Assembly (NCBI GenBank): GCA_026874595.1
Contig: CM049318.1
Span: forward strand, 60,484,250 to 60,548,249
Direction: 5' to 3'
DNA length: 64,000 nucleotides
From: Sipunculus nudus
Taxonomy: Eukaryota > Annelida > Sipuncula > Golfingiida > Sipunculidae
Part shown: in pieces, positions 10,940 through 59,100 of the stretch
How the letters are laid out: each line of letters starts with the position of its first letter
Numbering within the stretch: the first letter of the stretch is position 1
Program-made: the position numbers and the translations under genes
The notes under the pieces: generated by a model
Database searches by the model: none
What the model saw: only the letters and a program-made list of their open reading frames with translations
Told to the model about the DNA's origin: nothing

Positions 10940-12400
10940 GTTTCCACTGTAATAAGACACTAGCAGGTGCTGATCAGAAAATGCCCCATCAGAAGACACA
11001 AGTTGGTACTGATCAGACAATTTCCAGTAAGAAGACCCACATTTACCAGTGCTGGTCAGGCAGTCTCTAGTTCAAAGACAAGTACATGCTAATCAGACCA
11101 TTTTGAGTCAGAATACACAGATAGGTCGTGATCAGACAGGCTGAATTCATATGACACAAGTAGGTTCTGACAAGTCTCTAGTTCAAAGACAAGTAGGTGC
11201 TGATCAGACAATTTTCGGTCAGAATACACAGATAGGTGCTGATCAGACAGTCTGAATTCAGAAGACACATGAAGGTGCTGATTAGTCGTCTAGATAGATG
11301 ACAACTAGGTGCTGATCAGACAGTCTGCATTCAGAAGACACAAGTAGGTGCTGACAAGTCTCTAGTTCAAAGACAAGTAGGTGCTGATCCGACCATTTTC
11401 AGTCAGAATACACAGATAGGTGCTGATCAGACAGTCTGAATTCAGAAGACACAGGAAGGTGCTGATTAGTCGTCTAGATAGATGACAACTAGGTGCTGAT
11501 CAGACAGTCTGCATTCAGAAGACACAAGTAGGTTCTGACAAGTCTCTAGTTCAAAGACAAGTAGGTGCTGATCATACCATTTTGAGTCAGAATACACAGA
11601 TAGGTGCTGATCAGACAGTCTAAATTCAGAAGACACAGGCAGGTGCTGATTAGTCTATAGACAGATGATAACTAGGTGCTGATCCCACCATTTTGAGTCA
11701 GAATACACAGATAGGTGCTGATCAGACAGTCTGAATTCAGAAGACACAGATAGGTGCTGACAAGTCTCTAGTTCAAAAACAAGTAGGTGCTGATCAGACC
11801 ATTTTCAGTCAGAATACACAGATAGGTGCTGATCAGACAGTCTGAATTCAGAAGACAAAGAAAGGTGCTGATTAGTCTATAGATAGATGACAACTAGGTG
11901 CTGATCCGACCATTTTGAGTCAGAATACACAGATAGGTGCTGATCAAGTCTCTAGTCCAAAGACAAGTAGGTCCTGATCAGACCATTTTGAGTCAGAATA
12001 CACAGGTGCTGATCAGACAGTCTGAATTCAGAAGACACAAGTAAAAAAACAAGTAGGTGCTGATCAGACCATTTTGAGTCAGAATACACAGATAGGTGGT
12101 GATCAGACAGTCTGAATTCAGAAGACATAAGTAGGTGCTGATAAGTCTCTAGATAGAAGACAAGTAGGTTGTGATCAGACAGTCTGAATTCAGAAGACAC
12201 ATGAAGGTGCTGATTAGTCGTCTAGATAGAAGACACAAGTAGGTGCTGATCTGGTAGTCTCCAGTCAGAAGACATATATTCCATTCATGTGTCAGCGCTG
12301 ATCAGACAGGTTCAAGTTAGAAAGACACATGAAGGTGCTGATCTGACAATTTCCAGTTAGAGGACACACTTAAAGAAGTGCTGATCAGACTTGTATTTCT
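10940..12400. repeat. Higher-order tandem array, 184-bp super-unit
   Basis: Monomers of roughly 40-50 bp all contain 'aggtgctgatcagaca' followed by variants such as 'gtctgaattcagaagaca', 'ttttgagtcagaatacaca' or 'gtctctagttcaaagaca'. Between about 11231 and 11599 the monomers repeat in a fixed order, with the same type returning at 11231, 11415 and 11599 (184 bp apart). The edges are degenerate. Minus-strand open frames here only reflect the repeat. Confidence 0.88.
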
Positions 12401-19519: not shown

Positions 19520-21275
19520 AATAGAAACAGTCAAATTTCCGGATAGTCTAAAATTTTGCTGAAGTAGTTCCTGTCAGACCATATGTTACAGAAGAATAAT
19601 AAAGGCCTGTGATCGAGTTTATCCATTACAAAGCATCTCCAAAGATTTTGAAAAGATTATAAATGAACAGATGCAGGAATTTTTAAACATTGTAGTTAGT
19701 CCGGAGATACCTGCATAAATAGAAAAGGGCATTGTACTGACAGTGTTCTATTATATCTTACTGACATGTGGAAAGAAGCATAAAAAAACAGAAAGTATAG
19801 GAGCAATCCTAATGAACATAAGTAAAGCTTTTAATTGTTTACCATTTGACCTATTGGTGGCAAAACTGAAAGCCTGTGGCATGTAAGATAAAACTCTTCT
19901 GCTTATAACTAATCATATAAGAAATAGGAAATTGAGAGTAAAAGTTGGGGGTATAGTCGTAGTAAGTGGAGCAATATGACCAAAGGTACTCCACAGGGCT
20001 CGATTGTTGGCCCGGCACTCTTCCGCTTTTTAATGAATGATGTTACGTGTGTCTTCAGCAGAGGTAAAATAGGTAAATATGCTGATGACAACACACTTTA
20101 GGTAACTGCAAACAATGAGCTAGGGTGAACTTGTAAAAACTCTCACAAATGAAACAAAATTAGCTATTCAATGGTTTATTCAAAACCATATGCAGGCAAA
20201 TCCAGAAAAATTTCAACTTCTTTATTTTGGAAAATACTCAGAACAGAAAATATATGTATAGATAAAGTTGTCATAAAACTGTCACAATCTGTAACCCTTT
20301 TGGGCGTATAAATTAATAGAAATTCAAGTTTTACAGAACACATATCCAACATTTTCAAAAAAAGTGCAAAAGCACTATATAAGAATCTACATAGACTCAG
20401 ACTGCTGTCTTACACTGTCTAGATGTTATATATATATTGAGTCACATCATGTATTGTTGCACTGAATGGCACTTTACTTATAAGAAAATTTAAAAAATAA
20501 TAATAGAAAAAAAGCAGGAACGAGGTCGACGGTATGTCTTTAAATACTAAAAAAGTACATATAAAAAAAACTCTTCTTAAAATCATATTTTACTTCTCTG
20601 GAGACAGTCAGAAAAAGAACAGTACTCATTGCAGTGTTTAAAATACCCTCGGCCTAGGCCCAGTGTATTTAAATGAATTACTCTGTAAAACAAACAGACA
20701 TAATAATTTAAGAAATAGTGAAAACAAACTTCACTACACCAATATAAAAAAAAAACAAAAAAAAAAACAAAACAAAAAAAAAAAAAACAAACACACACAC
20801 AGAAACATGGGGCATCAGGTCTCTTCAAGATCAAGGTGTTAAAGAGTGTATCTCTCTACCTGCACAACTTAAGGCTCCTTCAGAACTCAACTTTTAAAAT
20901 GATCTTGTACAATGTATTGTCTTAAACATTTTAAAATTTTTATCATTCTCTAGTGTTTTATTATTCCAGTATATCATTTTAATTAGATCATCATAGTCTA
21001 TATATATATTTCTTATCTGTCTCTGTCTATGATTGCAGTATCTTTTTAAAATCAGTATCACCATATCTACTATACACGAAGGATGGACTATGACTATAGT
21101 GGAATGTGTAAACATCATACTTGTTATCATGTATTTTGACTCTTACATTTTAATGCATTGGTTCTTCATTATATCTCTCATGTATGTAGTCGGTGACAAA
21201 AGCTCTGTTTTCTGTTGAACATAGATAACCGACATTAAATAAAACTTATCTTACCTTATCTTATCTTATCAATAA
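19520..21275 (+). pseudogene. Decayed non-LTR retrotransposon (reverse transcriptase remnant)
   Basis: Across several frames with many stops and shifts, conserved pieces of a LINE reverse transcriptase are readable: FEKIINEQMQ near 19650, a TDSVLLYLTDMWKEA-like segment near 19750, KGTPQGSIVGPALF at about 19980-20025 and KYADDN near 20075 (the polymerase ADD motif). Near 20850 'SLPAQLKAPSELNF' resembles the C-terminal end of jockey/CR1-type elements. The 3' end at about 21235-21272 carries a TTATC-type simple-repeat tail. It is too broken to be active. The 5' boundary is approximate. Confidence 0.72.
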
Positions 21276-21962: not shown

Positions 21963-22708
21963 GTTCGGTGGAGACCGACAGACAAACAGGGGCCGCGTCA
22001 GGTTTGAACTCCACGATTTCTCAAACCACCTCCAAAATTTGGTGTACCAAGAAAGGGCTTCCCCACTTCCCCATGTGTATGGTAACGTTGTGAATGTCAA
22101 ACTGACATGACAGGCAGGTTACAAAATAGACCAGGAGACGGTGTTTCTGTCAGCTGATATCAGAGGAACCTGTTCAGGTATATGGCTGCTGAACTACTCT
22201 GTTAAGGTATAATATAAAACATAAATTGAGTCTAATATCCAAGGATACTTTTATCTTTCAATTTCTTATTTTCATACCCAAGCGAGCTGTCCCAAGCCAG
22301 GGTACGGACAAACTGGCGAAGGGGTTTCTTGTCAAATTCTTGTCATCTGTGTATAAGTTTGCAAATTTAAACACAAAATGTTGGTATAAAGTTTTTATCC
22401 CAGGGAGTTTGAAGGTACTGGTTTACGCTTATTCCGTAACTGGCTGATAGCAATAAATAAACATAAGCAAACAATTTAAATTGATTTTTTTTTTAATTCT
22501 GAAAAAGCCAATAGACAGATCAGTCTTGGCAGACCGGACTAATCTCAGACAAGCATTTGCAGTGTTAGAATTTCTTTGATTTCTTTTACAGACTAAAAAC
22601 AAATAACCAACACTGATCATTTTAACAAATATTAAGCCAAACATGTTTAAAATTCAAACCATATTTTTTATGCCTACAGCCAACCAGAACTTATCAGACC
22701 ATTTTGTT
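21961..22708. promoter_or_regulatory. Upstream region of TMEM177, possible 5' UTR exon
   Basis: Because the TMEM177 start codon sits five bases or less downstream of a good splice acceptor, a non-coding first exon must lie upstream, here or nearer 19 kb. No TATA box or unambiguous donor could be fixed. 'cctgttcaggtatatgg' near 22168 contains one possible donor. Confidence 0.25.
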
Positions 22709-23235
22709 TACACTTTTTGTTTCAGATGTGGCATGCTTGTTCCAGCTATCCATGCATTGAACTATTTGAGAGATATTGTTGTGAACTTTTTATTCCAAAC
22801 AAATGGCAGGCTAAATTTGTACCAGCTGTCCATTGAATAATTTGAGACAATGATATAAACTTTTGTTTCAGACATGGCAGGCTTGTACCACCTATCCATT
22901 CAGTTATTTGAGATATTGATATAAACTTTTGTTTCAGACATGGCAGGCTTGTACCAGCTGTCCATTGACCTATTTGAGACATTGTTTGTTTCACTTTTTG
23001 TTTCAGACATGGCAGGCTTGTACCAGCTGTCCATTGAACTATTTGAGACCTTGTTTGTTTCACTTTTTGTTTCAGACATGGCAGGCTTGTACCAGCTGTC
23101 CATCGAACTATTTGAGACATTGTTTGTTTCACTTTTTGTTTCAGACATGGTAGGCTTGTACCAGCTGTCCATTGAACTATTTGAGACCTTGTTTGTTTCA
23201 CTTTTTGTTTTAGACATGGCAGGCTTGTACAGGAC
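22709..23235 (+). repeat. Eight-copy tandem array of the TMEM177 acceptor/start-codon segment
   Basis: A unit of 66-75 bp, exactly 69 bp in the last copies, repeats with 'ctttttgtttcagacatggc' followed by 'aggcttgtaccagctgtcca'. The ATG-equivalent positions are 22728 (GTG), 22803, 22874, 22940, 23009, 23078, 23147 and 23216. Each unit carries a pyrimidine tract plus CAG acceptor two bases before ATG GCA GGC TTG TAC. The last is the true TMEM177 start; the four before it are in frame with it and without stops. Confidence 0.93.
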
Positions 23236-23404
23236 GTTCAAAAGTAAAACCCAGCAGGTTGTGGGAGTAGCACTCGGCGTGGCATTTGCTGGCTCCATGT
23301 ATCCCAACACTCTCGGCCTCAACAATTATCGCAAACTGACCTCCATGTACAAGGATGGCGAGCCAGTTCCAGTGATCCAGAGTCTTAAAGATCTAGTTCA
23401 ACAG
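23216..23404 (+). CDS. TMEM177: TMEM177 coding exon 1
   Basis: Sixty-three codons from ATG to VQQ, ending CAG|GTATAT. It encodes the N-terminal hydrophobic stretch VVGVALGVAFAGSMYP and the PVIQSLKDLVQQ helix, which continues in exon 2 as VLLDIRM. The human counterpart reads similarly (SLFQEVLQDIGV), which confirms the join. Confidence 0.9.
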
Positions 23405-26400
23405 GTATATAGCTTTATTGGAATTTTATGCATGTTATCCAGCCAACCAGGTCTTTAGGTTTAAAAGTCAACAGACAAAGACTGATTTTATGAACAGTAA
23501 CATGTTACTTATAAATTAAATATTGACATAAAAAATAATATCTGATCATTCATATTATCTGCCTTTAGGAGAAAAGAATTCCTAATCGTTTATGTGGGTC
23601 CTCGTAAAATTGTTAAAGTGTGATTGGGTAAAGATAATTCCCAGAACCTTATATCAAAATAGGCCAGAAAATGCCAATCACATTGCCCATAGGTTACTCC
23701 TTTTGTTTATATCCACATGACAATAACATTTGGGGGCACCAAAATAATACAAACACATTCAACAAGGACATTTGGTGGCAAGTTACGCTCCCAAGGCAGC
23801 GGAAATCTTGCGCTTCTAAAGAAGCAACTGATTTTCAGCTTTGACCGTTTATGATATATTTAGACACCAGATGGCGATTTGTTGTCCACTGAAATAAACG
23901 TGCGTACGATGCGACAAGCAGCCAATCAGATGCCAATAAACAAACACTCGACAGGCATCCTGGCTCCGCCCATTGCCGCGCTTCAAGCGACATTTGATGA
24001 GTTTCCTGTCGAATTTAAATTGCTCCCTCTGCATTCTCGCATCATTGATCGATTCGATTATGACATTATGACTGTGTTAGCGACGCGTAGCCATGTATCT
24101 GTTGTCTGTAGAACTGAAACCAGCCAGCGAGGTGTGCACGCAGCCTTTGTTGTTACGTTTCGTTTGAATTACAGCTCACCGGCCGAGCATCCTATGTGCC
24201 CAAGGCCCTAAGCAAACCACGTCAGGGGCAATTCTCTCTGAGCCTGTGGCCTGTTTAGACGGTTACGCTGGGGGATAAACTGTCACTCAAAAAGAAATGA
24301 ATATGATTGGCTCCGTGTATTCCTCGCTTGGCTTTGTCTTCCAGCACAAAGTTTCATCTGATTGGACAAAAATACAGTGCTCCCGTCTAGTGTTGCAAAG
24401 CAGGATACGAGGTCATAACAAACAGCGCCTTACGATATAGGAAGTAGCCGTATAGGTAAAGCGCTGTGTAAAGAGCGTAGTGGCAAGTCAGATGAACCAG
24501 AGGGTGTCTTGCAACTAGTGACCTTTCAACTTTGGCATGTGTGCAACCAACCACCTTAGGTTTCTTGTATTTTTCAATTTCCAGAGGCATGCATATAAAT
24601 AAGGCAGTCTCGCTTTGCCAACTCTCTCACTATGGCCTGATATGTTAATATAGCTAAATCTTCAATTTCATTAACTTTAAAGCCAGCTATTTTCCAACCT
24701 TTTCTGCAGTTTATGTGATTTCTGGCTTACTCTACACACATATACTGTGGTTGCCTTTATATCGGCGGGGCTGAATTTTCGCGGTTTTCTTATTTTTAAA
24801 ACTTTCACGGGGTTCCTTTTTCGCGCTCTGTCATAAGTATAGTAGTACATTTTACTTATCAAATATACAAATTTTTAAAATGTACTGACCAAATTATTTC
24901 ATAAATTGCTGATTTCACTTTTATCTATTGTATGCTCACTATTTCTCTGTACGGATATCGCATGTTTAAACAGCCACGGACGGCTGAGCCGACGCGTGCA
25001 GGGAGCGTTGACCACGCTGGCTGTAATTAGTTCAAGGCCAAGTCTCAATCAAAACAACTCACATGTCAGTAAAGGTGTGAGAAACCAACCTGTGACTACA
25101 CAACCGTGTTATAAGTTTAGGGAAACTGTCTTGATAAGGCTAGTATTAAAGTTATCAAACATAGCCTGGCATGTCATTGGATTTCAGTAGTGACATCGGC
25201 ATCAGCCCTTTATACAGATACAAGGTGGCCCGACTCTAGCAGCTACGTTTACTACTTTAGGTAGCAAATTTTATTCATTTATAATAACAAAATACGGCAC
25301 AATATGAAAGATTACCTACCATTAAATATTCGTTTTAAGCGCCACTGGATTTCATATAGCTTGGCACACATGCATACACTTCAAAAGAATCCGATAGGGG
25401 TCACTATTTGAAATACAGGTGAAACACTGCGAGAAAAACGTGCACGCGTTTATATTATTGCCGGGCATGCATTTACACTTTCCATTCGTGCTGGGAGGCT
25501 GGAAAAAATGCAAAAGGTCACGGTTTTCGCGTCAAAGCAAAACGATACTACTATAAATGGCACCCGTTATTCTCCATGAATCACCTTAAGTTAAAGTAAA
25601 TACACCAGGCACGATGGATATCACTACGTGGCTGAAGATTAATCACGAATATCGGCAGTTTCTAAAGTTTATGCTCATGGCCTGGTATGCATTTAAATCT
25701 GCGTGGTTTCAATTTTGCGGTCACAGGGCATTGGCGAAAAACGCGAATTTGAAGCCACCGCAAGTAAGAAGGCAACCACAGTATATGAATTATAGGTAAA
25801 TTACTGTCAGGAAAAGTATCACACATTTGGAAGGATATATACATGTGCTTGTTTATCTGCAAGCTGTTTGTAAACACAGCTATGTTGACAAACAGAAAAA
25901 CCATGTAACCTGAGGTGGTTGGTTGCATGTGCTAATTAGTAGCCATGTATCCCATGCCTATAGCCCTGAGTAAAAAAAAAAGGCTATTATTATGGTTATG
26001 CAAAAAGACATTAATAAACCTGTGACCTTTTTTCATCTGTTTTGTCATTATTATTAATAATTGAAATATAGATTATTTAATAATTAACAGATATTTGATT
26101 GCTAATCATTAAAATTCACAATAAAAAAAGCTCCAAAAGTTTAAATAGGAAGATACTTCAACTGAGAAGCTGGGGAAAAAGCTGGGAAAAGTTTCCACTT
26201 TACAGAATATAGAGGTGCCCACATTAGCTAAAAAGTATACAGAGAAGAGAAAAATGGGGCTGCCCAAAAGTGCCCACTTAACAGAGGTGCACACTTTATG
26301 GAGGTGCCCACTAAGAGAGGTTCGACTGTATGTGGAAGCTGAATTGTCACTACAGTGGAACCTGTCAAAAAGACCACCTGTCTTATAAGACCACATTTGC

Positions 26401-29400
26401 ATTTACAATGGTTGCAGTTTACCTATCTAATATGACCACTTGTGTATTAACCAATAACACTTTTCCCCAGTCCCACAGGTGGTCTCATCTCACAGGTTTC
26501 ACTGTATATATATGTAAGAGACGAGATTGAGTTGATACACAGAGGTATGCAAGTGAATATTTCTTTGTCTTATTTAGTCTTTTCTTATAATGTATATAAT
26601 ATTCTTCTGATCTTTTTTTTTAATGTTTTGTGAGCCATTTTGTGAAGCTTCAATATTTATGTAGACTGTGTTACAAGATAACTGCCTTTTTTGGACAGTA
26701 TTATATCATATCAGAAAAAATATGATTTCTAGATTCATAGAGTAATAGATCATTTATGCATGTGAACATGCATTGAATTATATTGATAAAAAATAAATGA
26801 GCTATGTTCCTTTTGTCTTTTTAAAATACTACATTACTAATATTACTAATACCAGTTTCCCTTCAAATTAATGTTGACAACAAAAGTATTGTGTAAATAA
26901 TCAGCAGCAGCCCACATCATATATCATTTGAATATGCCATATACAATACCAATGTAAGTTTCTTATTACATAGTTTATAAATAAAATTATAAAATAAAAA
27001 AATGAATGTTAATTATTACATAAATATTATAATATTATGTAAATAATATTAAATATATATTACTTGTGAACTATACATAACCATATTAATAAAAAATATA
27101 TAATATAAAATATTCCATTTACAAAACTAGACATTTCTTGGCACCGCAGGTGCCAGAGTATCCCGAGACGTAATAGGCCCCCCCCCCCCCTTCAAGAATA
27201 GACCCCTATTTTTAGCAGCATATACTGACACTTGGCATATTTATTGTTTCTTCCATCTAACAATCAACAATCTTGTTGAAGATGTTGGTCCTGTGACCTT
27301 GATCTTTTTAAAGATGTGTCCTGTGACCTTGACCTTTGACCTCATGACCCCAAAATCAAATCGGGTCTTGCTTTTCCAATGGGACATATGCAAGTCAGGT
27401 TTGAAATCTATACATCAATAAGCAGGAATTATCATCCAGAAACTAATTTTTGGACAGATGGCTCCTGTGACCTTCACCTTTGACCTTGTGACCTCAAAAT
27501 TGATAGTGTTCTTCCTCTCTTGGCAGGAGAACTATATGTGCAAGATGAAAGATCTGAGATGAAATGTTTGGCTGAAAATGCATCCACATCTTTTTAAAGA
27601 TGTGTCCTGTGACCTTGACCTTTGACCCCAAAATCAATTTTGGTCTTGCTTTTCCAATAGGACATATACAAGTCAAGTTTGATATCCATACATCAATAAA
27701 AGTAGGAATTATCATCCAGAAACTAATTTTTGGACAGATGGCTCCTGTGACCTTCATCTTTGACCTTGTGACCTCAAAATTGATAGTGTTCTTCCTCTCT
27801 TGGCAGGAGAACTATATGTGCAAGATGAAAGATCTGAGATGAAATGTTTGGCTGAAAATGCATCCACATCTTTTTAAAGATGTGTCCTGTGACCTTGACC
27901 TTTGACCCCAAAATCAATTTTGGTCTTGCTTTTCCAATAGGACATATACAAGTCAAGTTTGAAATCCATACATCAATAAAAGTAGGAATTATCATCCAGA
28001 AACTAATTTTTGGACAGATGGCTCCTGTGACCTTCATCTTTGACCTTGTGACCTCAAAAATTGAAAGGGGTCTTCCACTCTTGGCAGGTGAACTTTCTAT
28101 GCAAGATGAAAGATCTGAGATGAATTGTTTGGCTGAAAATGCATCCACATCTTTTTAAAGATGTGTCCTGTGACCTTGACCTTTGACCCCAAAATCAATT
28201 TTGGTCTTGCTTTTCCAATAGGACATATACAAGTCAAGTTTGAAATCCATACATCAATAAAAGTAGGAATTATCATCCAGAAACTAATTTTTGGACAGAT
28301 GGCTCCTGTGACCTTCATCTTTGACCTTGTGACCTCAAAAATTGAAAGGGGTCTTCCACTCTTGGCAGGTGAACTTTCTATGCAAGATGAAAGATCTGAG
28401 ATGAATTGTTTGGCTGAAAATGCATCCACAATCTTTTTAAAGAGGTTTCCTGTGACCTTGACCTTTGACCTCATGACCCCAGAATCAATTTTGGTCTTGC
28501 TTTTCCAATAGGACATATACAAGTCAAGTTTGAAATCCATACATTAATAAAAGAAGATATTATCATCCAGAAACTAATTTTTGGACAGATGGCTCCTGTG
28601 ACCTTCACCTTTGACCTTGTGACCTCAAAATTTATAGGGTTCTTCCTCTCTTGGCAGGTGAACTATATGTGCAAGATGAAAGGTCTGAGACGAAATGTTT
28701 GGCTGAAAATGCATCCACAATCTTTTTAAAGATGTGTCCTGTGACCTTGACCTTTGACCTCATGACCCCAAAATCAATTGGAGTCTTGCTTTTTCAATAG
28801 GACATATATAAGTCAAGTTTGAAATCCATACATCAATAAAAGCAGGAATTACCATCCAGAAACTAATTTTTGGACAGATAGCTCCTGTGGCCTTGACCTT
28901 TGACCTTGTGACCCCAAAATTTAGATCATCCACTATTGGCAAGTGAGCTATATATTCAAGATGGAAGACCTAGGATGAAAGTTTGGCTTAAAATGCATCC
29001 ACAGTATCTTTTAAAATGCAAGTCCAGTGACCTTGACCTTTGACCTCATGACCCTAGAACCTATAGGGTTCTTACTTTAGTGGTGCGCCATACATAAGTC
29101 ATGTTTGAAACCCATATGGCTATCAACACTGGAGATATCATAAGAGGTGTGTGATTTTCACCATATATGGCAATATTCAAGGTCAAGGCCACTATCATAG
29201 GAAAGGTCATGACCGCAATTTAAACAAACATCATCCCATAAGCCATACCTCAATGGCCTGCTCAATGATGGATTTTAATCTCGCCTAGGCGAGATTGCGA
29301 TTGTGATCTCGTCTAGGCGAGTTTAAAATCTGTCTAGCCGAGATCACAATTGCAATCTCGCCTAGGCGAGATCGAAATCGCAATCTCGTCTAGGCGAATT

Positions 29401-31976
29401 TAAAATTCGCCTGAATTTCAATCTCGTCTCTGACATATATATTACTAGCTGATAAACCCTTGATGATGTGATATGTTTAGTAGGACAGAAGAGAGAAAAG
29501 AGTTCATGTTGTACTAGCTGATAGACCCGGTATACCAGGCATATTACCGGGTTGGGGAGATATATTAACTGAGATGTGGAATGTTTGCTCATTTTTTATT
29601 CTAAAAGTTAACGAAAATATGAGTTTTCAGTGGGAAACTGTTTCAATAAGATATGTAATAATAATTTTACATTTATTTTGTTGCCCTGTGCTCGTGGCAA
29701 GAAATTCATATCCCGGTATGTTTATCTTGAAGACCTGGTCAGTGATTATGTTTACATTTCAAAACGGAATGAGACGCGGGGCATTCCAGTTTTTGATGAT
29801 ATTTGACTGGATTCTATCGTTAGACGTAAGATAAGGTTGATGTGAGGAACACATGAAAGATTTATTAAATGTATGTTGCAAGGTAACTGTTCCTGAAGAA
29901 AGAAACAGAAATATGCATACATCGTGAGTAGCAGAAGCGGACCCAACGGGACTTCATATAAAAAATACTTCCGTATATCCCATTTTCAGCCACCACAACG
30001 TTTTTTCTTCATCATATCAGACATATTTTGAGGCCTTAAACCCCTGCTACCCCTACTCAACACTGTTCCTGAAATTTGGACTTTGGTTTAGGTCAGTAAT
30101 CCTCCTTGGTTGAACAGTGAGAAACATGTGTTTTTCTCTTTTACTGACCACGCTTGTAGGTGAGAGCCTCGTTCAAATGTAATGCCCGACATGCTCAAAT
30201 CCCTCACTGAAAGCAAGCTTTATTCATATGAACAATAGTTTGAGGTTGAGTGACCACGATGCATGCTTTCCGGTCATTGCCGAAGGCAGTTCAGCTGTGC
30301 ACGGTCTAACCTTAGTGCAAGTCAGTAAAAACGGAAAAAATCACTCAAAATTATATGTACATTAAAAATTATTTATTCTCATATTGCCTATATCACTGCG
30401 GGGATAATAACCTTTAAAATGATGTATTGTACACAGCGCAGTTTTAGAGAACATTGCGAACAAACGTGAACCAAATTCCTTTTATAAGTATTAGATAGTG
30501 TCCAATGTGAATAACAACAAGAACAAACTGAACAGAATTTGTGATGAATGTTGGTAAAAAGAGAACATACAATAAAAGCTAGCATTCCATATATGCATAT
30601 TTGGTGTGTATGTGTTTGCAGGGCAAATGCACATGTAACTAGAAAATGGACGCCTGTGATTCCATAAATATGTATGGATATGTGGTGCATATACAGCTAA
30701 ACTTGGGATATAGTGCAGTGCTGCTTAGGTAGAGAAGTATTATGCCAGAGGAATACCCTGTAACTGATGTCAAAGTGATGAATTTCCCCTCCATTACCAT
30801 GCAGATGTGTTTTCAATCTCTACATTGAGCCATCGAAATGTGCTCTGTAGATTGAATGTGTCAGATTCCCAGCTGCATACACATAAGTCCCACATATAAA
30901 CTGCATATGCATATATGGAATGCCACCTTAATGGGAAATTTATGAAAGATCTGAAACTTACCAACAACTAATGCAAAACAGAGCTTTCTTCTGATCTGGA
31001 ACATATTACGAAACTTAATCTACAATTATGAACTTTGAATATATTACAAATCTGAAACTACAACTTCTATTGAAGATATCACAAGACTTTTTAAGTTGAA
31101 TTGGAGCTGCTTATGCATGTTATATTATTTTTTTATATATTTATTGTTATATTGTTTATTTTTTCATATATTGTTATTTTATTGCAGGTGTTGCTAGACA
31201 TAAGGATGGACCCGACAAAGGAGGTGAACATTGAGTTTTACATGGCTCATGGACAGAACATCATTCATCGTGGTTCAGCTAATGCGCGTACAGGAGCTGT
31301 TGTGGGATTTCCGGGAAACTTTACATTCACAAACATGGAGGACGTGGAGAAAGAGCAGGTACAGGTGTCAGGACAGGTCGTAGACTGGACCACTCCTGAG
31401 GGAGAAGCGTTACAGGACGCAATGGTGTTGTCGGATAAGGCGAAACGCTTTGGAATCGCTAGAGAGTTACACTACACTCTGCATCATCATGTCCTCGTAA
31501 AACCAATCATGCAGGCGGGCTGTGCGTTTGGTGCCTATGCCTCTGGGTTTGCGCTCAGTAATCTTTTTGCACTTAGAAACAGACTAAAAGGCTGGGCTCG
31601 TGTGGTAGTTTACGGAGTGGTAGCAAGCACTTGGGGTGCATTTTACTTGACAGTCCGGGATGCATATGAACAGAGAAGAGACATCAAAGCAGACCGTCAT
31701 GCTGCCGAGCTAGCCTATAGCTATGCAATTGGTGGTGTGGAATTTTACGATAAAATATTAAAACGAAATATAGCAATCCGCAAGCTGATGAAACATGAGG
31801 GAGAAAAATTGTACACAGTTTATGGTAATGACGTTGCAACATGGCGCCAACCTCATGTCCAAAATTCACGACGACTGGACTTAATGAAAAAAATTGTGGA
31901 GAAGTACAAATCAGGAGAAATCGAGGGCACAGCACACATAAGTAAACCAGTCAAGAAGGATACATTCAGCTTTTAG
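23216..31976 (+). CDS. TMEM177: TMEM177, two-exon gene (join 23216-23404, 31188-31976)
   Basis: The joined frame gives 325 residues; human TMEM177 has 311. In the human family the protein sits in the mitochondrial inner membrane, associates with COX20 and supports COX2 assembly into complex IV. Family landmarks are clear: GAVVGFP at about 99-105, VDWTTPEG at 128-135, RFGIARELHY at 150-159, YSYAIGGVEFYDKIL at 240-254 and GEKLYTVYGN. Likely membrane segments are residues 15-30, 169-192 and 199-219. The intron (23405-31187, GT-AG, phase 0) holds many repeats. An ATTAAA at 32084-32089 is a probable poly-A signal. The start at 23216 is chosen because it matches the family's MAG start, though four upstream in-frame ATGs exist in the tandem array. 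Confidence 0.93.
23405..23759. other. TMEM177 intron, 5' part
   Basis: AT-rich intron sequence after the donor; nothing else recognised. Confidence 0.5.
23760..24340. promoter_or_regulatory. CpG-rich patch with promoter-like motifs inside the TMEM177 intron
   Basis: CpG-containing words cluster here against an AT-rich background. A CCAAT-type box ('agccaatcag', near 23920), a GC box ('ggctccgccca', near 23965) and 'caccagatggcgat' (CTCF-like core, near 23865) are visible. A 110-codon plus-strand frame (23879-24211) spans the patch; I recognise no family in it. It may be an internal promoter or enhancer, or an exon of an unknown transcript. Confidence 0.35.
24341..25530. other. TMEM177 intron, middle part
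   Basis: No repeat or exon recognised. CpG-containing words continue sporadically to about 25530. Confidence 0.4.
25547..25799 (+). CDS. Candidate small TATA-led ORF, 61 codons, unknown
   Basis: 'ctataaatggc' at about 25551 is a good TATA box. An ATG at 25614, about 60 bp downstream, opens a 61-codon frame beginning MDITTWLKINHEYRQF and containing KFMLMAWYAFKSAWFQF, an aromatic, hydrophobic segment. CAA|GTAAGA near 25763 could be a splice donor, in which case this would be a first exon. No homologue is recognised. It lies on the same strand as TMEM177, within its intron. Confidence 0.25.
25800..26185. other. Intron sequence
   Basis: AT-rich; nothing recognised. Confidence 0.4.
26186..26335. 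repeat. Mariner-MITE-like remnant
   Basis: Contains repeated 'gtgcccac' words ('aggtgcccacattagc', 'aagtgcccacttaacaga', 'gaggtgcccactaagag') and ends 'ggttcgactgta', resembling the ends of the neighbouring TA-flanked MITE. The left end is not defined. Confidence 0.45.
26351..26506. mobile_element. TA-flanked mariner-type MITE
   Basis: Starts TACAGTGGAACCTGTC and ends CACAGGTTTCACTGTA, so the ends are imperfect inverted repeats bounded by TA, as expected of Tc1/mariner insertions. The internal 'aagaccacctgtcttataag' wording recurs in the related copy at 50656-50799. There is no coding capacity. Confidence 0.78.
26507..27177. other. AT-rich intron sequence
   Basis: Very AT-rich. No element boundary or exon recognised. 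Confidence 0.45.
27178..27190 (+). repeat. Poly-C tract
   Basis: Run of 13 C shortly before the 280-bp array. Confidence 0.9.
27280..29070. repeat. Tandem array of ~280-bp units carrying DR1-type half-sites
   Basis: Six to seven units, with equivalent points near 27312, 27599, 27879, 28160, 28442 and 28731. Units two to four are nearly identical; the first and last are more diverged. Each unit has 'tgaccttgacctttgacc' and, about 150 bp on, 'tttgaccttgtgacctca'. TGACCTTTGACCT is, on the other strand, AGGTCA-A-AGGTCA, a direct repeat with spacing 1. Open frames on both strands across units are by-products of the period and are not genes. Confidence 0.92.
29071..29267. other. Diverged continuation of the array
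   Basis: Retains 'aaggtcaaggcc' and 'gaaaggtcatgacc' (AGGTCA-like half-sites) but no clear period. Confidence 0.4.
29268..29435. repeat. Cluster of perfect and near-perfect ctaggcgag palindromes
   Basis: Units such as 'atctcgcctaggcgagat', 'gatctcgtctaggcgag' and 'caatctcgcctaggcgag' are separated by about 16-20 bp of 'attgcgattgtg'-like spacer, itself partly self-complementary. The whole tract can fold into several alternative hairpins. A weaker relative lies at 586-790. Confidence 0.88.
29445..29513 (+). repeat. Abortive/truncated R2 start
   Basis: 'ctagctgataaaccct' at 29445 repeats the first 15 bases or so of R2, 69 bp before the full copy begins. It then continues into unrelated sequence, so it is a truncated copy or a duplicated end. 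Confidence 0.5.
29514..30496 (+). mobile_element. Interspersed element R2, copy B
   Basis: Same ends and internal order as copy A at 14229-15083, with an extra block around 29960-30060 ('ttccgtatatcccatttt'). It starts 'ctagctgatagacccggta' and ends 'ataagtattagata'. No intact frame. It lies 0.7 kb upstream of TMEM177 exon 2. Confidence 0.72.
30582..30923. mobile_element. 342-bp MITE with perfect 19-bp inverted ends
   Basis: GCATTCCATATATGCATAT at 30582-30600 is exactly reverse-complemented at 30905-30923. A diverged relative is at 51657-51911. No open frame. It ends 264 bp before the TMEM177 exon 2 acceptor. Confidence 0.78.
31188..31976 (+). CDS. TMEM177: TMEM177 coding exon 2
   Basis: Acceptor 'ttttattgcag' precedes GTG TTG CTA GAC. 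The exon codes 262 residues and ends with TAG at 31974-31976. It carries all strongly conserved parts of the protein. The frame is also open upstream through intron sequence to an ATG at 31101, but those codons are AT-rich intron and not family-like. Confidence 0.93.
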   Translation: MLLDIRMDPTKEVNIEFYMAHGQNIIHRGSANARTGAVVGFPGNFTFTNMEDVEKEQVQVSGQVVDWTTPEGEALQDAMVLSDKAKRFGIARELHYTLHHHVLVKPIMQAGCAFGAYASGFALSNLFALRNRLKGWARVVVYGVVASTWGAFYLTVRDAYEQRRDIKADRHAAELAYSYAIGGVEFYDKILKRNIAIRKLMKHEGEKLYTVYGNDVATWRQPHVQNSRRLDLMKKIVEKYKSGEIEGTAHISKPVKKDTFSF

Positions 31977-40698: not shown

Positions 40699-43600
40699 CT
40701 GAAAAAGGATAAATATACTAAATGTTTCATCACACGTTGATATCAACCTATTCCAAAATGTGAGAAAATGACTGAATAATAGACATTGTAATATTTAAAT
40801 CTCACATTAAAGTTTAATGTTGGTTGATTATGACCCTATCAACATTATCATTAAACTACAACCATTAAACCACTTTTTCATACCAATCAGTTTCATTGTG
40901 GTTATACCTCCACACAATTTCCCTGGGCTACATGGTTGGTTTTTCTGTTAGCAAATGAACTCAGAAATTATGAATAGATTATGATGACACTTTCTGAAGG
41001 GTTCGGGTAACATTCAAGGAACAACCCATTGAAGTCTAAATTTAATCTGGGTCACCATAATGTTTTTAATTCAAAGGATTCTTTAGGTATATAAGGGCAA
41101 TTTCTATATCCCAGGCAAGGGCCTCAGCCATTCACTAGAATTAGGAACCACCTTTGTTCTATAACTGACCTATGATGCAACCATGCATGTAGTTGGTGAG
41201 CTGTGACATATATTAATTCATATGTGTAGCACAAAGTTTAATAATGATCCTTGTGATGGTTGTTGTCTATAACTGTTTTCTAGTATATTTAACATGCAAT
41301 GTTACAACAACCATGGAAATGCTACATAAATGCAGGATGCAAGAACGAAAGATATACAACATCTGTTGAACAGAACAAAAGTTATATACAACATCTGTTA
41401 ATCAATATAACCTGTATATCTGCAATGGCAACACACTTATTGTTCTCTTTATTATTCTTTTATATGGTATTGCACCTGCATATCGGAACCTGCAGTCTAT
41501 AACAAATTGGAATTCAAGATTCCATTCATAATACAACACAAGTATGCATGTAAAAAGAGACATTTCACTCTGTCTATTTTCTTCAGCTGATGAGTTTCTG
41601 GTAGTGGATGAAATCTTAATTTCAATAATGAACATCAGCTCCACAACTGATTATCAACAGAATATAAATTTTAACAGGAGAATCTTTTCAATCTTTTTAA
41701 ATATCTGCCCTTGACCTCAAATTAGTTGTAGTTAGTGAGTTTTTTCATCCTTGGTGTCAGCCCCCTTGAAAATGTAGTGCAAAATCTTGTTGTTTAAATT
41801 TTGGCCACCAGATGGCCTTGGTTTACAAGGAAGAACCTAGTACATCTAAACATCTTTCTCAGTGAAAAGAACACCAAGTATAATGTCATGTGACCCTTAC
41901 AATACTGTCCTTTCAACACCTGATAACATAGGGCTGTGCCTAGTATATAACACCTGTATTGTATTTACTGTAATATTTCTGAATACATGTAAACACGTAC
42001 CATTGTGGACTCTAAGGATGGCTTCACATACAAATTTGTATTGGCTCTGAAAAGTGGAAGTGAAAATATGGTCAACATACATCAGTGCTTCACCTGATAC
42101 AACTTGGTACAAGTCAATAGTGGTCTCTACTGCAATAATGTCAGTGTGCAAATAAAGTAATTACAAGTATTATAGTAAACATTTTATAGAACATACAATT
42201 AGGGCTATATATAGCTGTACAGCAAGACTTGTTTATAAATCCTCATAGCAATGGCATGAATCTTTTTTTTATTATTATTATTATTATTTCATTTACATAC
42301 TGACAAATTTAAGGCACAACTTTTTTTAATGGCTGTTTCTGATGAAACAGGTAACATTCTTTTAATTTTGTGCCTTTAGGAAGATTCAGAACAGATATTA
42401 AAACATATAATTCAGTACTGCTGAATTACTCAACACAAAATATTTTCACATTCAAAATTAAAATTAATGAAAAATATTTTATTTTTTTCTTAATAATGAT
42501 ATCAACATTTTTTAAAGACAAATATGCAAACAAGTAAAAAGGACCTCAATACAAACAGGCATGTTCTGTAATATATTTCTACATGTTGTTCACTAGCTGT
42601 ATAAAAAAATATATAAAATTTTGAAGAAAAAGTACTGCCTACTTACAGAATTTTGTATAAGCATTGCTCGCTGGTCTCTCATCTGTCTGACGATGTCTAG
42701 TGGATACACCGGCTGGTTGGCCTCAATTAAACACATTGCTGTTTCCATAGTGATCAGCACACCTGTCCGGCCGATGCCCGCACTGATAAAGTAAGCACAT
42801 AAATTTATGTAATATATATCAGATAGTTTATCTATATAATAAATAAAAAAGTGAGCAAAAAGATAATGCGAATAATTTTTGGAGTAAGCCAGATCATATT
42901 TATAGAAGGACATTGTTGATAAAGATAAGAAAGAAGAAAATATTCAAGTTATGTAAACAATGTTTTGTGTTTCAATCATAAGCTATGTTTGGGACTCTGT
43001 GATCCAATATTGAAGGTTTTGTTAATGATAGCAATTACCAGCCATACAGAATATTGCTTATACAGATACTCTTGTGCGTGGAGGCAATAAATGACTGCCT
43101 GTTTGAAAACTGCAGGCAAACAACTAGTGCTCCCTAGCGTCCAGCCAGACCAGCCCATTCATTTAATACAGCAGTGCAGGCACTGGAAATAGTGTTTTTA
43201 ATTGCTGATCATTCTGATGCTTAATATTTATCATATTAATAACGCTGTGTTAAAACATATTACAGAAATATGAAAAGAAATCAGAAATTGCTGCATTTGG
43301 CATGGTTTGTATTAGAATTTGATCTTGAATCAACTGCCTTGTATGAAAATGTAAGGGAAATGTACACAGGGTCTTTCAGTCATTGATAAAGAGCAAATTT
43401 TACAAGTTTCTTCAATTGTCGTACATTCTGGTACCAAACAAATTTAACCTTGTATTTATTCAATATCACACTAATTAACTAGAATACAGGTAGTCAACAA
43501 GCGACTATGTGTATCCATCAAATAACAGAGGCATGGGTAAAGTAAGGCATCAAATGTTCCTGACATAACATAACTCCAAATTTGTGACATCAGTGATGCC

Positions 43601-49500: not shown

Positions 49501-52500
49501 ATATCTGGTTAACAAATCTTACTCACTTATTCCTAAAGGTTAATGTAACTTGCATATATAGGACCAGTGAAGTCACTCACTGAATGACTATGGTTACAAG
49601 AATGGATGCTGTAAAAACTCTGATAACTATTATTACAAGTTACTCACATTGACATAGTTAGCATTAATGTAGTCACCAGCTGCTCCTTTTATCACCACTC
49701 TGGTCTGGTCATCTGGAAAATATACTTCATGTAAGTAGGGCTGTGATGACATTATCTCACGACACAAATAGATATCATGATGATTTACTCATGACATCAT
49801 GAACCTTCACTCATGATATCATGATACTTTACTCATGATATCATGATATTTTACTCATGATATCATGCTACTTCACTCATGATATCCTGATACTTTACTC
49901 ATGATATCATGAACCTTCCCTCGTGATTTCATGATATTTCACTCATGATATCCTGATACTTCACACATGATATCATGCTACTTCACTCATGACATTTTAC
50001 TCATGATATCCTGATACTTCACTCATGATATCATGATACTTCACTCATGGTATCATGATACTTCACTCATGATATCATGATACTTCACTCATGGTATCAT
50101 GAACCTTCATTCATGATTTCATGTTATTTCCCTCATGATATCCTGATACTTCACTCATGATATCATGATACTTCACTCATGATACCATGATACTTCACTC
50201 ATGATATCATGATACTTCACTCATGGTATCATGAATCTTCACTCATGATTTCATGTTATTTCACTCATGACATCCTGATACTTCACTCATGATATCCTTA
50301 TACTTCACTCATGATATGATGAACCTTCACTCATAATATCATGATACTTTACTCATGATATGATGAACCTTCACTCATGATATCATGATACTTAACTCAT
50401 CAGATCACAACTCTGATCCGGTTCAACTTCTTTGTGAAAAGTGATACTTCTTATTACATGCCCTGTTTGGGGCTGAGAGACTATTATCAAATGCCAGACA
50501 TCACTTTCCATGAGATGATCCAATATTAATGTATGGTATCTAAAAAACTGATATAATATTTTACTTTGTACTGCATTGTATCGTTGCATCAGCATATCCT
50601 TAAAATCCACACATGAACAAAAGCTAAACTGAATTTTCCTTATATATAAAAAGACTACAGTGAAACCTGTGTTCTGAGACCACCAAAAGGACTGGACAAT
50701 CGTGGTCTTAAATCACAGGTGGTCTTATTAGACAGGTCAGCAATAACCAGTGTGAATGTTTTAATAGACTGGTGGTCTCATAAGACAGGTTCCACTGTAT
50801 ATAAAAGTAAACATGACTATATCAATCAGAACTTGAGCATGTAGTCAAAAGTACCAAATCCCATGCCAAGCTGAAATCATTGTGCTTTTGCTATTAAGAA
50901 ATTCTAAAATTAGGAAAACTAAATAAAAACATGAAAATGGAAACATCCATGAAGAATCATACATTAAACTTGGTATAATATCTGTGTCTTTGTTGTTAAA
51001 TTATAGATTCAACTCACATGGGGATATATCCCTGTATCTGTTCTTTGACACGTTATCTGTGTGTCTCGCTGCGTTCATTGTCATCCCTGGCTTCTTCCTG
51101 TACATTTGCTGAAATTGATAAAAATCAGAACTGGATGACAATCATTCACTGAAAAAATACTATCAATGATAGAATGAGCATACTTAAAGTATCATCTCCG
51201 GCACAAAACTCTTCATTTAAATCAATTAAAAAGTAGATTTAATTCATGTTTGACTCCAAACTTTCAAGTTTAATTGCCAATTTTCAAGTTATCAATCAAC
51301 TCAAACAATACAAATCTTCAACAGGGAAAGCTCGCCTAAAATGTTTTAATCACAGTATATTAATAATTCTGTGACTGGATTTACTCTCATACAGAATATG
51401 ACAAATATAACAATATTCAAACACTCGAAGGTGAAAATACCTCAAACTGAGCCAAGGCTGCCCCGCTTTCCAATCCTTCGCTGAGTAACAGGAGGGACCC
51501 GGCCAAGGCATCGCCGTGGGACAGAGTGCTGGAGATGTGATGAGTATCAGGGATGTACTGAAAGTCGGGCTCCTCAGCCTGCTCCTCTCCAATATAAACT
51601 GTAATAAAGAAAATTTACATATGTTATGTCCCCCACTTGGGTACACTCCTAAAGCTAGTATTCCATATATGCGTATGTGGTACATATGCGATATGTATGC
51701 ATATAAATATAAACTTATTTATTTTACATGGATTGTACAAATAGTTATTATGACTAATCGCGGCACTCTCCATGGCTCAGATTTTGGCATTCGGTAGACT
51801 GTATGGGTGGAGGAAACCGAAGAACCTTGAGAAAACCACTGGCCTAAGACAGGCAACTACAACCCACTCTCATAGCCATGCTGGGGATACTGCATACGCA
51901 TATATGGTATCACTCTAAGAGAATATCATGTGTGTGATTCTTAGATGCATTTAAGCATCTGTAATGCATACAAGGCAATACTTGGCAAGGGCCAAGAATA
52001 ATCTGACCATTGAGAATGGGGCATTGCAATTTTGCATCCAAGTTTGGGACCTGCAACGTCTCGCTTTCAAGCGGCTGAACAGTCTTGGCCTTGTGCCAAC
52101 TGCTCGGTGGTGTAACCCAGCAAACCCTGCTATAGCAAGCAGTGGATGAGGGAAGGAGTAGAAGAATACATAAAGTAGATTAACACTATGTAAGGAGCAC
52201 ATACCTTGGTTCATTATTAGTATAATATAATTAGGGAAAGTATAATATTAGCTGTCAATGGAGAACAGATACTTAATAATTGGCAGGATGGAATTTCTTC
52301 ATATTATAATATATACAGTGAAAATAAATTTCATTTGTAGTACATGCAAGAATATGAGTTGAAAAAGTGCATATTTCTGATTAAAAATTTCAAGCACACC
52401 TGAATATCCTTGATATTTCATATGCCTGAATTTTTCTTTTTATTAAATGCTTTTTTTCAAAATCCTGCATAAAATTCCACAAACAGATAGTTAAGGGGAA

Positions 52501-56100: not shown

Positions 56101-59100
56101 TTGATTTAACTCTCAACAATAAGGTAATACAGATCAATTAAACAGTTAATAAAAAGGGTCTCTGAATGATACCACAGATATCACCAAACATGCACAGCTG
56201 ATATTATACTTGCCTATACTGTAAATCAAAAGTTATTGTGAATGAACATTTGTGTGTGTTGACATCATGCTGTGCTGAAAGTGGATAAAAAGTCTAGGGG
56301 GGGGGGGATAAATACACTACTTATTTATATATTATGTACAAACCATGGCAAATACAAATACTAACAGCTGTGCCATAACCCAGGATTTGAAATTCAAACA
56401 ATGTTAGTAAGTGGGTATATAAATATTAAAATGTGTCTGGGTAAATTTTCAGTAATCAAGGGAACACTTATCTAAAGACATGAGGATAAAATATAGCAAG
56501 TATATCCAACTACACAATAGCTTCATAAACATAATATCTGACTCATCCCGATCAAATCTTCCTCAATTCAACTAAACCTAGCACACACGATACTTCCTCT
56601 ACTCATGTTGCGTTGGACCAAGAGACCGTTCAGATCGCTCAAAACTATAGAGTCAGGCCATCTGTACCAAGTCAGGCCCAAATCTGGCCTTGTTGTTACA
56701 CACAGACTTAGCTGGCATATATCACAATCTATACTGGTCCCTCCATTAAGAGCATGAGTAAAACCCCTCCCATTCTTCTTAGTTTTGTCATCCATAAAAT
56801 TCCATGACCCTAAAATTTAGGCTGTTAAACAGACACTTTCCCCCTTGCAGGTCACTGAAAATCCCTCTGTATTCTCCTGAACATGCATATCAAACCATCA
56901 TTGGCTTTGCCCTTCCAAAAAAGCACAACCAGCATTCATTTGTTGTGACAACTTTAAAATAACTAACAATGAAGCATTTTTAACATAAGATTTTTGCATC
57001 ATGGTTGTTCACTGCAGTCTCCTTAGCCTTAAAAGTGCAAAAGTGTCCCTTTTCTTCTTTCGTCCAGCTTCCCTTGTGTTATCCCTCCAGAACTGGCGGC
57101 ATTTTCACTGGACGCAGCCATCTTGATGAATGCTGCTGACAGGCCGTAAATTTCCAGTCATATGACAGACCCAATAGTTCTTGAAGAGCACTAAATTTAA
57201 AGCTACCTCTACAATTCTTATTACCCATATATGGAGAATGATTATAGCATGTCTCAAAGAGCAGCTTCAAAAGCACTAGAATGTACACCCATGGTTTCCC
57301 ACCTCAGTTCTGCCAGTTTAGTTTTGGACATTCTAAACTAAAATGACATGCATTCTGCCCAGATTCAGGACATGTTGAGGATGCAGAGTGATCCAGATCA
57401 TGTGTAAATGGGGATAATATGATAAGCAAGTAACTACATTAATGTGATAAAGAAGATGAAGTGAGGCTCTTATGGTATGCAGTAACAGATCCACAGGGGC
57501 CTGACATACAAGATCATATTAAACTCAAAATATAACCCACTGAATTGTAAACCACACTCACAATGCCTTATAACAACACTTGGTGGATAAGGGCTACAAA
57601 TGTTGCCAAAGACAATCATTACTGCTTTGCATTATTTTTTATATAATGTATAATAACCACTAGTCACCTGGTGGCAAAAAATTAAATGCACACACCTGCA
57701 CCACAGAACTGTCAAAACTAATGGTTATTTACTGTAAGGTAAACTGATTTTTTGCATATCTGCTTGGTAGAATTATCTGTGACAGGGCCACTTTCTGTGA
57801 CAGGGCCACTTCATGTGCATGTCGACTTGGAGGAAAATGTCCCATCATGCATGGCAAGGGAAATGAAATCTCCGCAGGTAATTTTATGTGGAGACAAACT
57901 ATACTTGGATTCAAAGCAGATTTATAATATTTTCAAAGTAACATGGCATGTTTCAATAGCATCATAATCTTTTACCATGCATCTTGAGATTGCTCACATA
58001 TCACCTGATATGCCCAAGTCACCCTGATTCTAAAAATTTAGGAACATGTTGAAAACTATCCCGATGTTTCCCTGTTCCTCTCTCTCTTCCCAAATTCATC
58101 TGGAAGTGTCCCGGTGTTACCCCCAATATCAGCCCAATGTCACATCTCTGCAATCTGATGTGACACCAGCTAAGTGTAAGCCCTGTTTAATTATTTTCTA
58201 CCAGTGTTTATTTTACCAGATTTTTTTTCTTTAAATATGTAAAAATAAAACAATTAAGTAAACCCAGTCATGGGGATGACGTTTGGAGCACTAATCTCCC
58301 TTGTGTTGTTATGCAGTCATCATAAAGGCGGTATAAAACCCAGCAGGTTATATTATTGGGTTTAATTTTCTAATCTTGTACTACTGTCCCTGCAAACAGA
58401 ACTATGTGCGCGTGATGAGCCCTTCACCAGTGATGTAATGGTCATGTCCCAAAGTACAAGCCAGTGCGCACAGCCCACATCACCTGTGTTAAGTGACCCT
58501 CCACCGTAACAACCCAGTGACGAGCTGAAAGCCCTAACGTTTACCTCTGCGTGACTTAAACCAGTGTAGTAGGTGTCTGCTGCTCTGACCTGTTCGTGCG
58601 TGTGTTGCGACACATCCCGACCGTTAATATACAGTACTTGGTCGCCCTCGTTTAGCCGCGGTATACATAGATCGGCAGGCGTACCCGGCGCTACTCGTGA
58701 CACGATGATGGGCATACCCTGGTCTGCTCCCCCCTGTAGACATAAAGATATCTTATAATGTTACAGTGAGTCAGATGACAAGTCACTGAGAATAAACACT
58801 GTCAGTGAATAAATATGAGTCAGACGAGAATCATATAACCACTTAATGAATTGACTTAACAAACATGGCACTAGACAGTTATTTAGTCGAGTTATGCGTC
58901 ACACCACTAAATTGTCTCTTAATGAATTGACATGTGTCTCATGGAACAAACTGTCACTCAAGAATTAACATGTGTCAGAGGGAACAAAAGTGTCACTCAA
59001 GGATAAATGTGTTGCTCAATAATTAACATATGTCACATGGAACCAAACTGTCACTCAAATTAACTTGTGTCATAGGAAAATATAGTCATTCAAGAATCCA

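Follow-up and report, generated by a model that had tools for sequence, protein, structure and literature searches.

The window analyzed here is a stretch of 64,000 nucleotides from Sipunculus nudus (contig CM049318.1). It carries a TMEM177-like gene on the + strand and exons of a PTPN4-like phosphatase gene on the - strand. The exons were:

23214 to 23404, + strand: first coding exon of the TMEM177-like gene, boundaries predicted (acceptor AG ending at 23213, donor CAG/GTATAT, start codon ATG at 23216)
31188 to 31976, + strand: second coding exon of the TMEM177-like gene with stop codon, predicted; the joined protein matches human TMEM177
42596 to 42943 and 58365 to 58760, - strand: exons of the PTPN4-like phosphatase with a PDZ domain, from Pfam and solved-structure matches

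The coding exons of the TMEM177-like gene were delimited by homology and signals. Joined, the two exons encode a protein of 325 aa, which agreed with human TMEM177 in 95 of 309 columns (31%, E 2e-34). A Pfam search of this protein returned no family. For the proteins of the neighboring gene Pfam returned a phosphatase and a PDZ domain, and among solved structures PTPN4 chains were the top match of both pieces, followed by PTPN3. The PTPN4-like neighbor fits the human gene order, in which TMEM177 and PTPN4 presumably adjoin. Human TMEM177 is reported to reside in the intracristal space, and its knockdown to reduce both the density of cristae and oxygen consumption (PMC12368266). Mistargeting of the protein would therefore plausibly matter.

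Tandem arrays are frequent throughout the window. In total, 26 arrays with a period of at least 10 were counted after the rows of Tandem Repeats Finder (TRF) had been merged by hand and an A-rich run at 20746-20807 left out. They covered 12.1% of the window, and nine of them, including the one at TMEM177 described below, were at least 200 bp in size. Since the window is this rich in arrays, one on an exon edge is not startling. Among the others, TRF placed a 281-bp array (6.2 copies, 92% matches) at 27302-29054 inside the TMEM177 intron and overlapping higher-order arrays with periods from 36 to 295, built of a GGTGCTGATCAGAC-type repeat, at 11062-12390. A 22-bp array of 637 bp at 49771-50407 was also reported with periods of 44 and 66 bp. 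An AT-rich array at 31118-31184 stops three bases short of position 31187, where the acceptor AG of the second coding exon ends, and does not reach into that exon. The TMEM177 intron additionally holds an open stretch of 115 codons (23864-24208) with a GC content of 49%, compared to 37% for the whole intron.

Immediately upstream of the first coding exon, a segment with an acceptor-like sequence and a start codon is repeated head to tail. The copies were, from left to right:

22687 to 22727, + strand: remnant of the unit's intron part at the left edge, decayed but with a pyrimidine tract and a CAG (AG ending at 22725)
22728 to 22802, + strand: copy 1, 75 bp, GTG mark, out of phase, stop after 10 residues
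22803 to 22873, + strand: copy 2, 71 bp, ATG without an AG in the 8 nt upstream, reading MAG-stop, out of phase
22874 to 22939, + strand: copy 3, 66 bp, behind a weak acceptor (AG ending at 22871), reading MAGLY, in phase, stop after 16 residues
22940 to 23215, + strand: copies 4-7, each of 69 bp, without stops and in the TMEM177 frame; starts at 22940, 23009, 23078 and 23147, behind AGs ending at 22937, 23006, 23075 and 23144

Inspection of the sequence gave eight ATG or GTG marks (22728, the GTG, and 22803, 22874, 22940, 23009, 23078, 23147 and 23216), which delimit seven whole units of 75, 71, 66, 69, 69, 69 and 69 bp. TRF reported a period of 69 at 22817-23230 (6.1 copies, 91% matches, score 625) and a period of 138 at 22703-23230 (3.8 copies, 82% matches, score 638). 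Furthermore, a 34-nt probe across the junction, searched on both strands with up to 3 mismatches, had five matches, all inside the array, and none in 100 shuffles. The eight-copy head-to-tail array of 66-75 bp units given in a preliminary description of this DNA is thus real on the evidence of the marks, the TRF rows and the probe. The left edge reaches further than given there, to 22687. Local alignment of the left-edge copy scored 48 for region 22641-22727 (best of 300 shuffles 29) and 34 for region 22401-22719 (best shuffle 28, none of 300 reaching the score); for region 22561-22719 the score was likewise 34, with a best shuffle of 40 and one of 300 reaching it.

In a clear unit, intron-type sequence with a terminal AG makes up 52 nt and exon sequence the other 17 nt. 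Beyond TTGTAC, the TMEM177 sequence continues in the gene-proximal copy only. An AG lies close upstream of the mark in seven of the eight copies, six times as CAG and once as TAG, the latter being the TTTTAG of the gene-proximal copy; copy 2 has none. The sequence MAGLY was read in five copies, the remaining three giving VACLF, MAG-stop and MVGLY. Both motifs had been ascribed to every copy, which holds for six copies in the case of CAG and for five in the case of MAGLY. Taken together, the data support a tandem duplication of a splice-acceptor-like and start segment of the TMEM177-like gene.

A known RNA element was rejected as an explanation of the array, as an Rfam search with gathering thresholds gave no match in the whole window. 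In a set of viral contigs (viral_contigs) a 26-nt probe of the unit had no match, and four stretches fitted a pattern for TMEM177, none of which was confirmed.

Splice sites were scored with acceptor and donor matrices. The acceptors ending at 23006, 23075 and 23144 each scored 6.7 and the gene-proximal site (23213) 5.5, compared to 6.5 for the second coding exon, 4.6 for the left-edge site at 22725 and 1.1 each for 22871 and 22937. Among the 3666 AGs on the + strand the three sites with 6.7 ranked 21 (tied) and the gene-proximal one 32. By these scores, the acceptors of the three nearest upstream copies seem to equal or surpass that of the gene itself. That all copies are equal as acceptors was rejected, since copy 2 lacks an AG close by and the scores at 22871 and 22937 are low. 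The gene-proximal acceptor ends in TAG, whereas CAG was read at three other acceptors of the window, two of them exon edges of the neighboring gene identified by eye. Six of the eight marks stand in the context GACATGG, the exceptions being 22728 and 22803. Starts behind TTTCAG have a G at both -3 and +4, and an upstream ATG would, if included, probably be translated for this reason.

The acceptor-like look of the units could be deceptive. Transcription might start in or near the array, in which case an upstream intron would be absent and the repeat would be a minisatellite of promoter or 5'UTR. This would agree with the fact that no upstream exon was identified in an inspection which was not systematic. 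The gene-proximal site, however, has 12 pyrimidines in 15 positions, two bases lie between its AG and the ATG, and the nearest AG before it is 28 nt further upstream. Together with its rank by the acceptor matrix, these features make an intronless start very unlikely.

The last five starts share one open frame that runs into the first coding exon without stops, as the preliminary description had stated. An open frame as such needs little explanation, as three of the six frames are free of stops over copies 4-7. Among 20,000 random 69-mers, the share without a stop in a given frame was 21% (composition of intron 2) or 34% (composition of the array). The open frame was therefore rejected as evidence of selection. 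Five codons vary among copies 4-7, two of them synonymously and three with a change of amino acid, compared to 49 synonymous and 147 amino-acid-changing single changes that are possible. These codon differences give no signal of constraint, yet are too few to exclude it.

From the starts at 22940, 23009, 23078, 23147 and 23216 the two-exon products would have 417, 394, 371, 348 and 325 aa. N-termini with one to three, at most four, extra repeats of 23 residues are possible as judged from the sequence; of the one to four additions proposed initially, all are in frame, but the start of the fourth (22940) lies behind a weak acceptor. One 23-residue unit has a net charge of -3 and a mean hydropathy of 1.10. 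With one added unit, the first 20 residues go from a net charge of +3 to one of -2, the first acidic residue moves from position 47 to position 10, and the best 19-residue hydropathy in the part encoded by the first exon rises from 1.34 to 1.66. An added unit would accordingly be expected to weaken the basic, presequence-like start. The earlier proposal that the repeats are hydrophobic and alter targeting agrees with the computed N-terminus, which becomes more hydrophobic and also more acidic; the effect on targeting is predicted from composition.

These properties would suit a functional cassette of several acceptors, in which splicing picks among the copies and produces TMEM177 with 0 to 4 N-terminal repeats and changed targeting. 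That three duplicated acceptors outscore the gene-proximal one, that copies 4-7 are open and in frame, and that an added unit shifts charge and hydropathy as described all speak for it. Against this, openness is cheap in the present array, and the few codon differences can neither show nor exclude constraint. Furthermore, mirages, which are minisatellite duplications of intron/exon boundaries known from lancelet genes, are reported without disturbance of splicing (PMC3087553, PMC3902484). We regard a functional cassette as rather unlikely.

The copies differ in age by appearance. Identity to the gene-proximal unit was, from left to right, 74, 69, 77, 78, 96, 99 and 94%; the three units nearest to the last one are hence 94-99% and the four leftmost 69-78% identical to it, a gradient as expected of an array renewed near the gene. 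At one codon ACA and ACC alternate across copies 4-7. This alternation and the 138-bp TRF row suggest a growth step of two units, on a single informative site. A likely history would begin with a single duplication across the junction, after which the array grew close to the gene and its distal copies decayed.

The assembly may also have multiplied or collapsed the near-identical units beside the gene, so that the copy number would partly be an artefact. The 94-99% identity of the three units before the last one speaks for this, and one lancelet mirage is reported to appear aberrantly assembled in the genome draft (PMC3087553). However, five codons differ among copies 4-7 and the left copies are well diverged, which argues that the array as such is no stutter. 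A copy number that is partly an assembly artefact is most improbable.

Copy 7 differs from its neighbors in one further respect. Alone among copies 4-7 it has GTA in place of GCA, which creates GTAGGC and a candidate intron:

23150 to 23213, + strand: possible nascent intron of 64 nt, predicted, from the donor-like ATG/GTAGGC to the gene-proximal TTTTAG

By the donor matrix the site of copy 7 scored 2.35, close to the 2.39 of the exon-2 donor, which itself ranks 158 among 3534 GTs. Excision of the 64 nt would shift the frame of the product from the first ATG, so that the segment could at best provide material from which a new intron might evolve. Internal tandem duplication as a route to intron gain was reportedly described by Rogers in 1989, Zhuo et al. 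in 2007 and Gao and Lynch in 2009. The array resembles it in having duplicated splice signals from which an intron could arise; unlike in that process, the copy 7 intron is only predicted and its removal leads to a frameshift. A stronger version of the cassette would have the three strong duplicated acceptors compete with that of the gene in a live start-codon cassette, with the number of hydrophobic, acidic 23-residue repeats varying by individual and tissue and the mitochondrial inner-membrane share of the protein shifting. We hold it to be distinctly unlikely; if it were true, the new donor of copy 7 would be an intron in the making.

We consider it probable, as far as can be judged from the DNA, that the array is a mirage-type intragenic minisatellite of which the last acceptor is used mostly or only. 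A segment of about 69 bp, comprising the last 52 nt of a 5'UTR intron and the opening 17 nt of the first coding exon, would have been duplicated in tandem. Slippage or unequal exchange, perhaps moving by one and by two units at a time, would then have expanded and homogenised the array, and copies far from the gene would have decayed meanwhile. Most transcripts would use the gene-proximal acceptor (AG 23212-23213), resulting in a protein that starts at 23216. The acceptors ending at 23006, 23075 and 23144, strong on paper, may be used in a minority of transcripts, whose products would carry one to three 23-residue repeats ahead of the usual start. We infer in this model the upstream 5'UTR intron, the mechanism of growth, the choice of acceptor and variation between individuals.

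The mirage-type reading is favored by the clear copies, each of which carries a pyrimidine tract with AG and 17 nt of exon, and by the lancelet globin gene BflGb6, which has the same layout and for which regular splicing is reported to be kept (PMC3087553). It is weakened by the score of the nearest three upstream acceptors (6.7 vs 5.5), by the TAG of the gene-proximal one, and by the probable translation of an included upstream ATG. The same source also considers it possible that the repeated signals serve as cryptic sites and yield alternative transcripts (PMC3087553), which weakens it further.

Were the duplicated acceptors in use, the N-terminus of a mitochondrial protein, and with it perhaps its location, would be determined by a minisatellite. 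The locus would then allow one to study, in a natural setting, which of several near-identical acceptors the spliceosome selects and how new introns or protein ends might arise from mirages. If they are unused, this is one more genome that tolerates repeated splice signals without evident harm.

Tandem alternative acceptors of the NAGNAG type are competing 3' splice sites near one exon as well. The copies described here, however, lie 66-75 nt apart, and the clear ones have their own pyrimidine tract and start codon. The closer match is with mirages, of which three features were found. The TRF rows extend to 23230 and overlap the predicted boundary at 23213/23214. Many but not all repeats keep the splice signal (seven of eight, two scoring low), and homogenised units (94-99%) are combined with a diverged edge (69-78%).

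Lancelet genes with mirages comprise Adh3 and the globins BflGb6 and BflGb9 (PMC3087553) as well as TnC and PGBD5 (PMC3902484). The unit of BflGb6 contains the 3' end of an intron and the 5' part of exon 2 and occurs six and three times in two haplotypes (PMC3087553); the present array has the same layout, an intron 3' end with the 5' part of the following exon. Units of the Adh3 mirage measure 10-72 bp (PMC3087553), compared to 66-75 bp here. Adh3 data and RT-PCR of the globins are reported to suggest that regular splicing is undisturbed, and mirages were proposed as a source of new introns (PMC3087553); no aberrant mRNAs are reported to be generated by the mirages of Adh and TnC (PMC3902484). 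A search of open-licence literature gave no record of an array at TMEM177, nor of a mirage with a start codon and a period that is a multiple of three. The structure is of a known kind. Particular to the present array are the TMEM177-like gene, the start codon in the unit and the period divisible by three. As the start codon lies within the duplicated part of the exon and a period of 69 bp leaves the frame intact, an included copy would extend the N-terminus.
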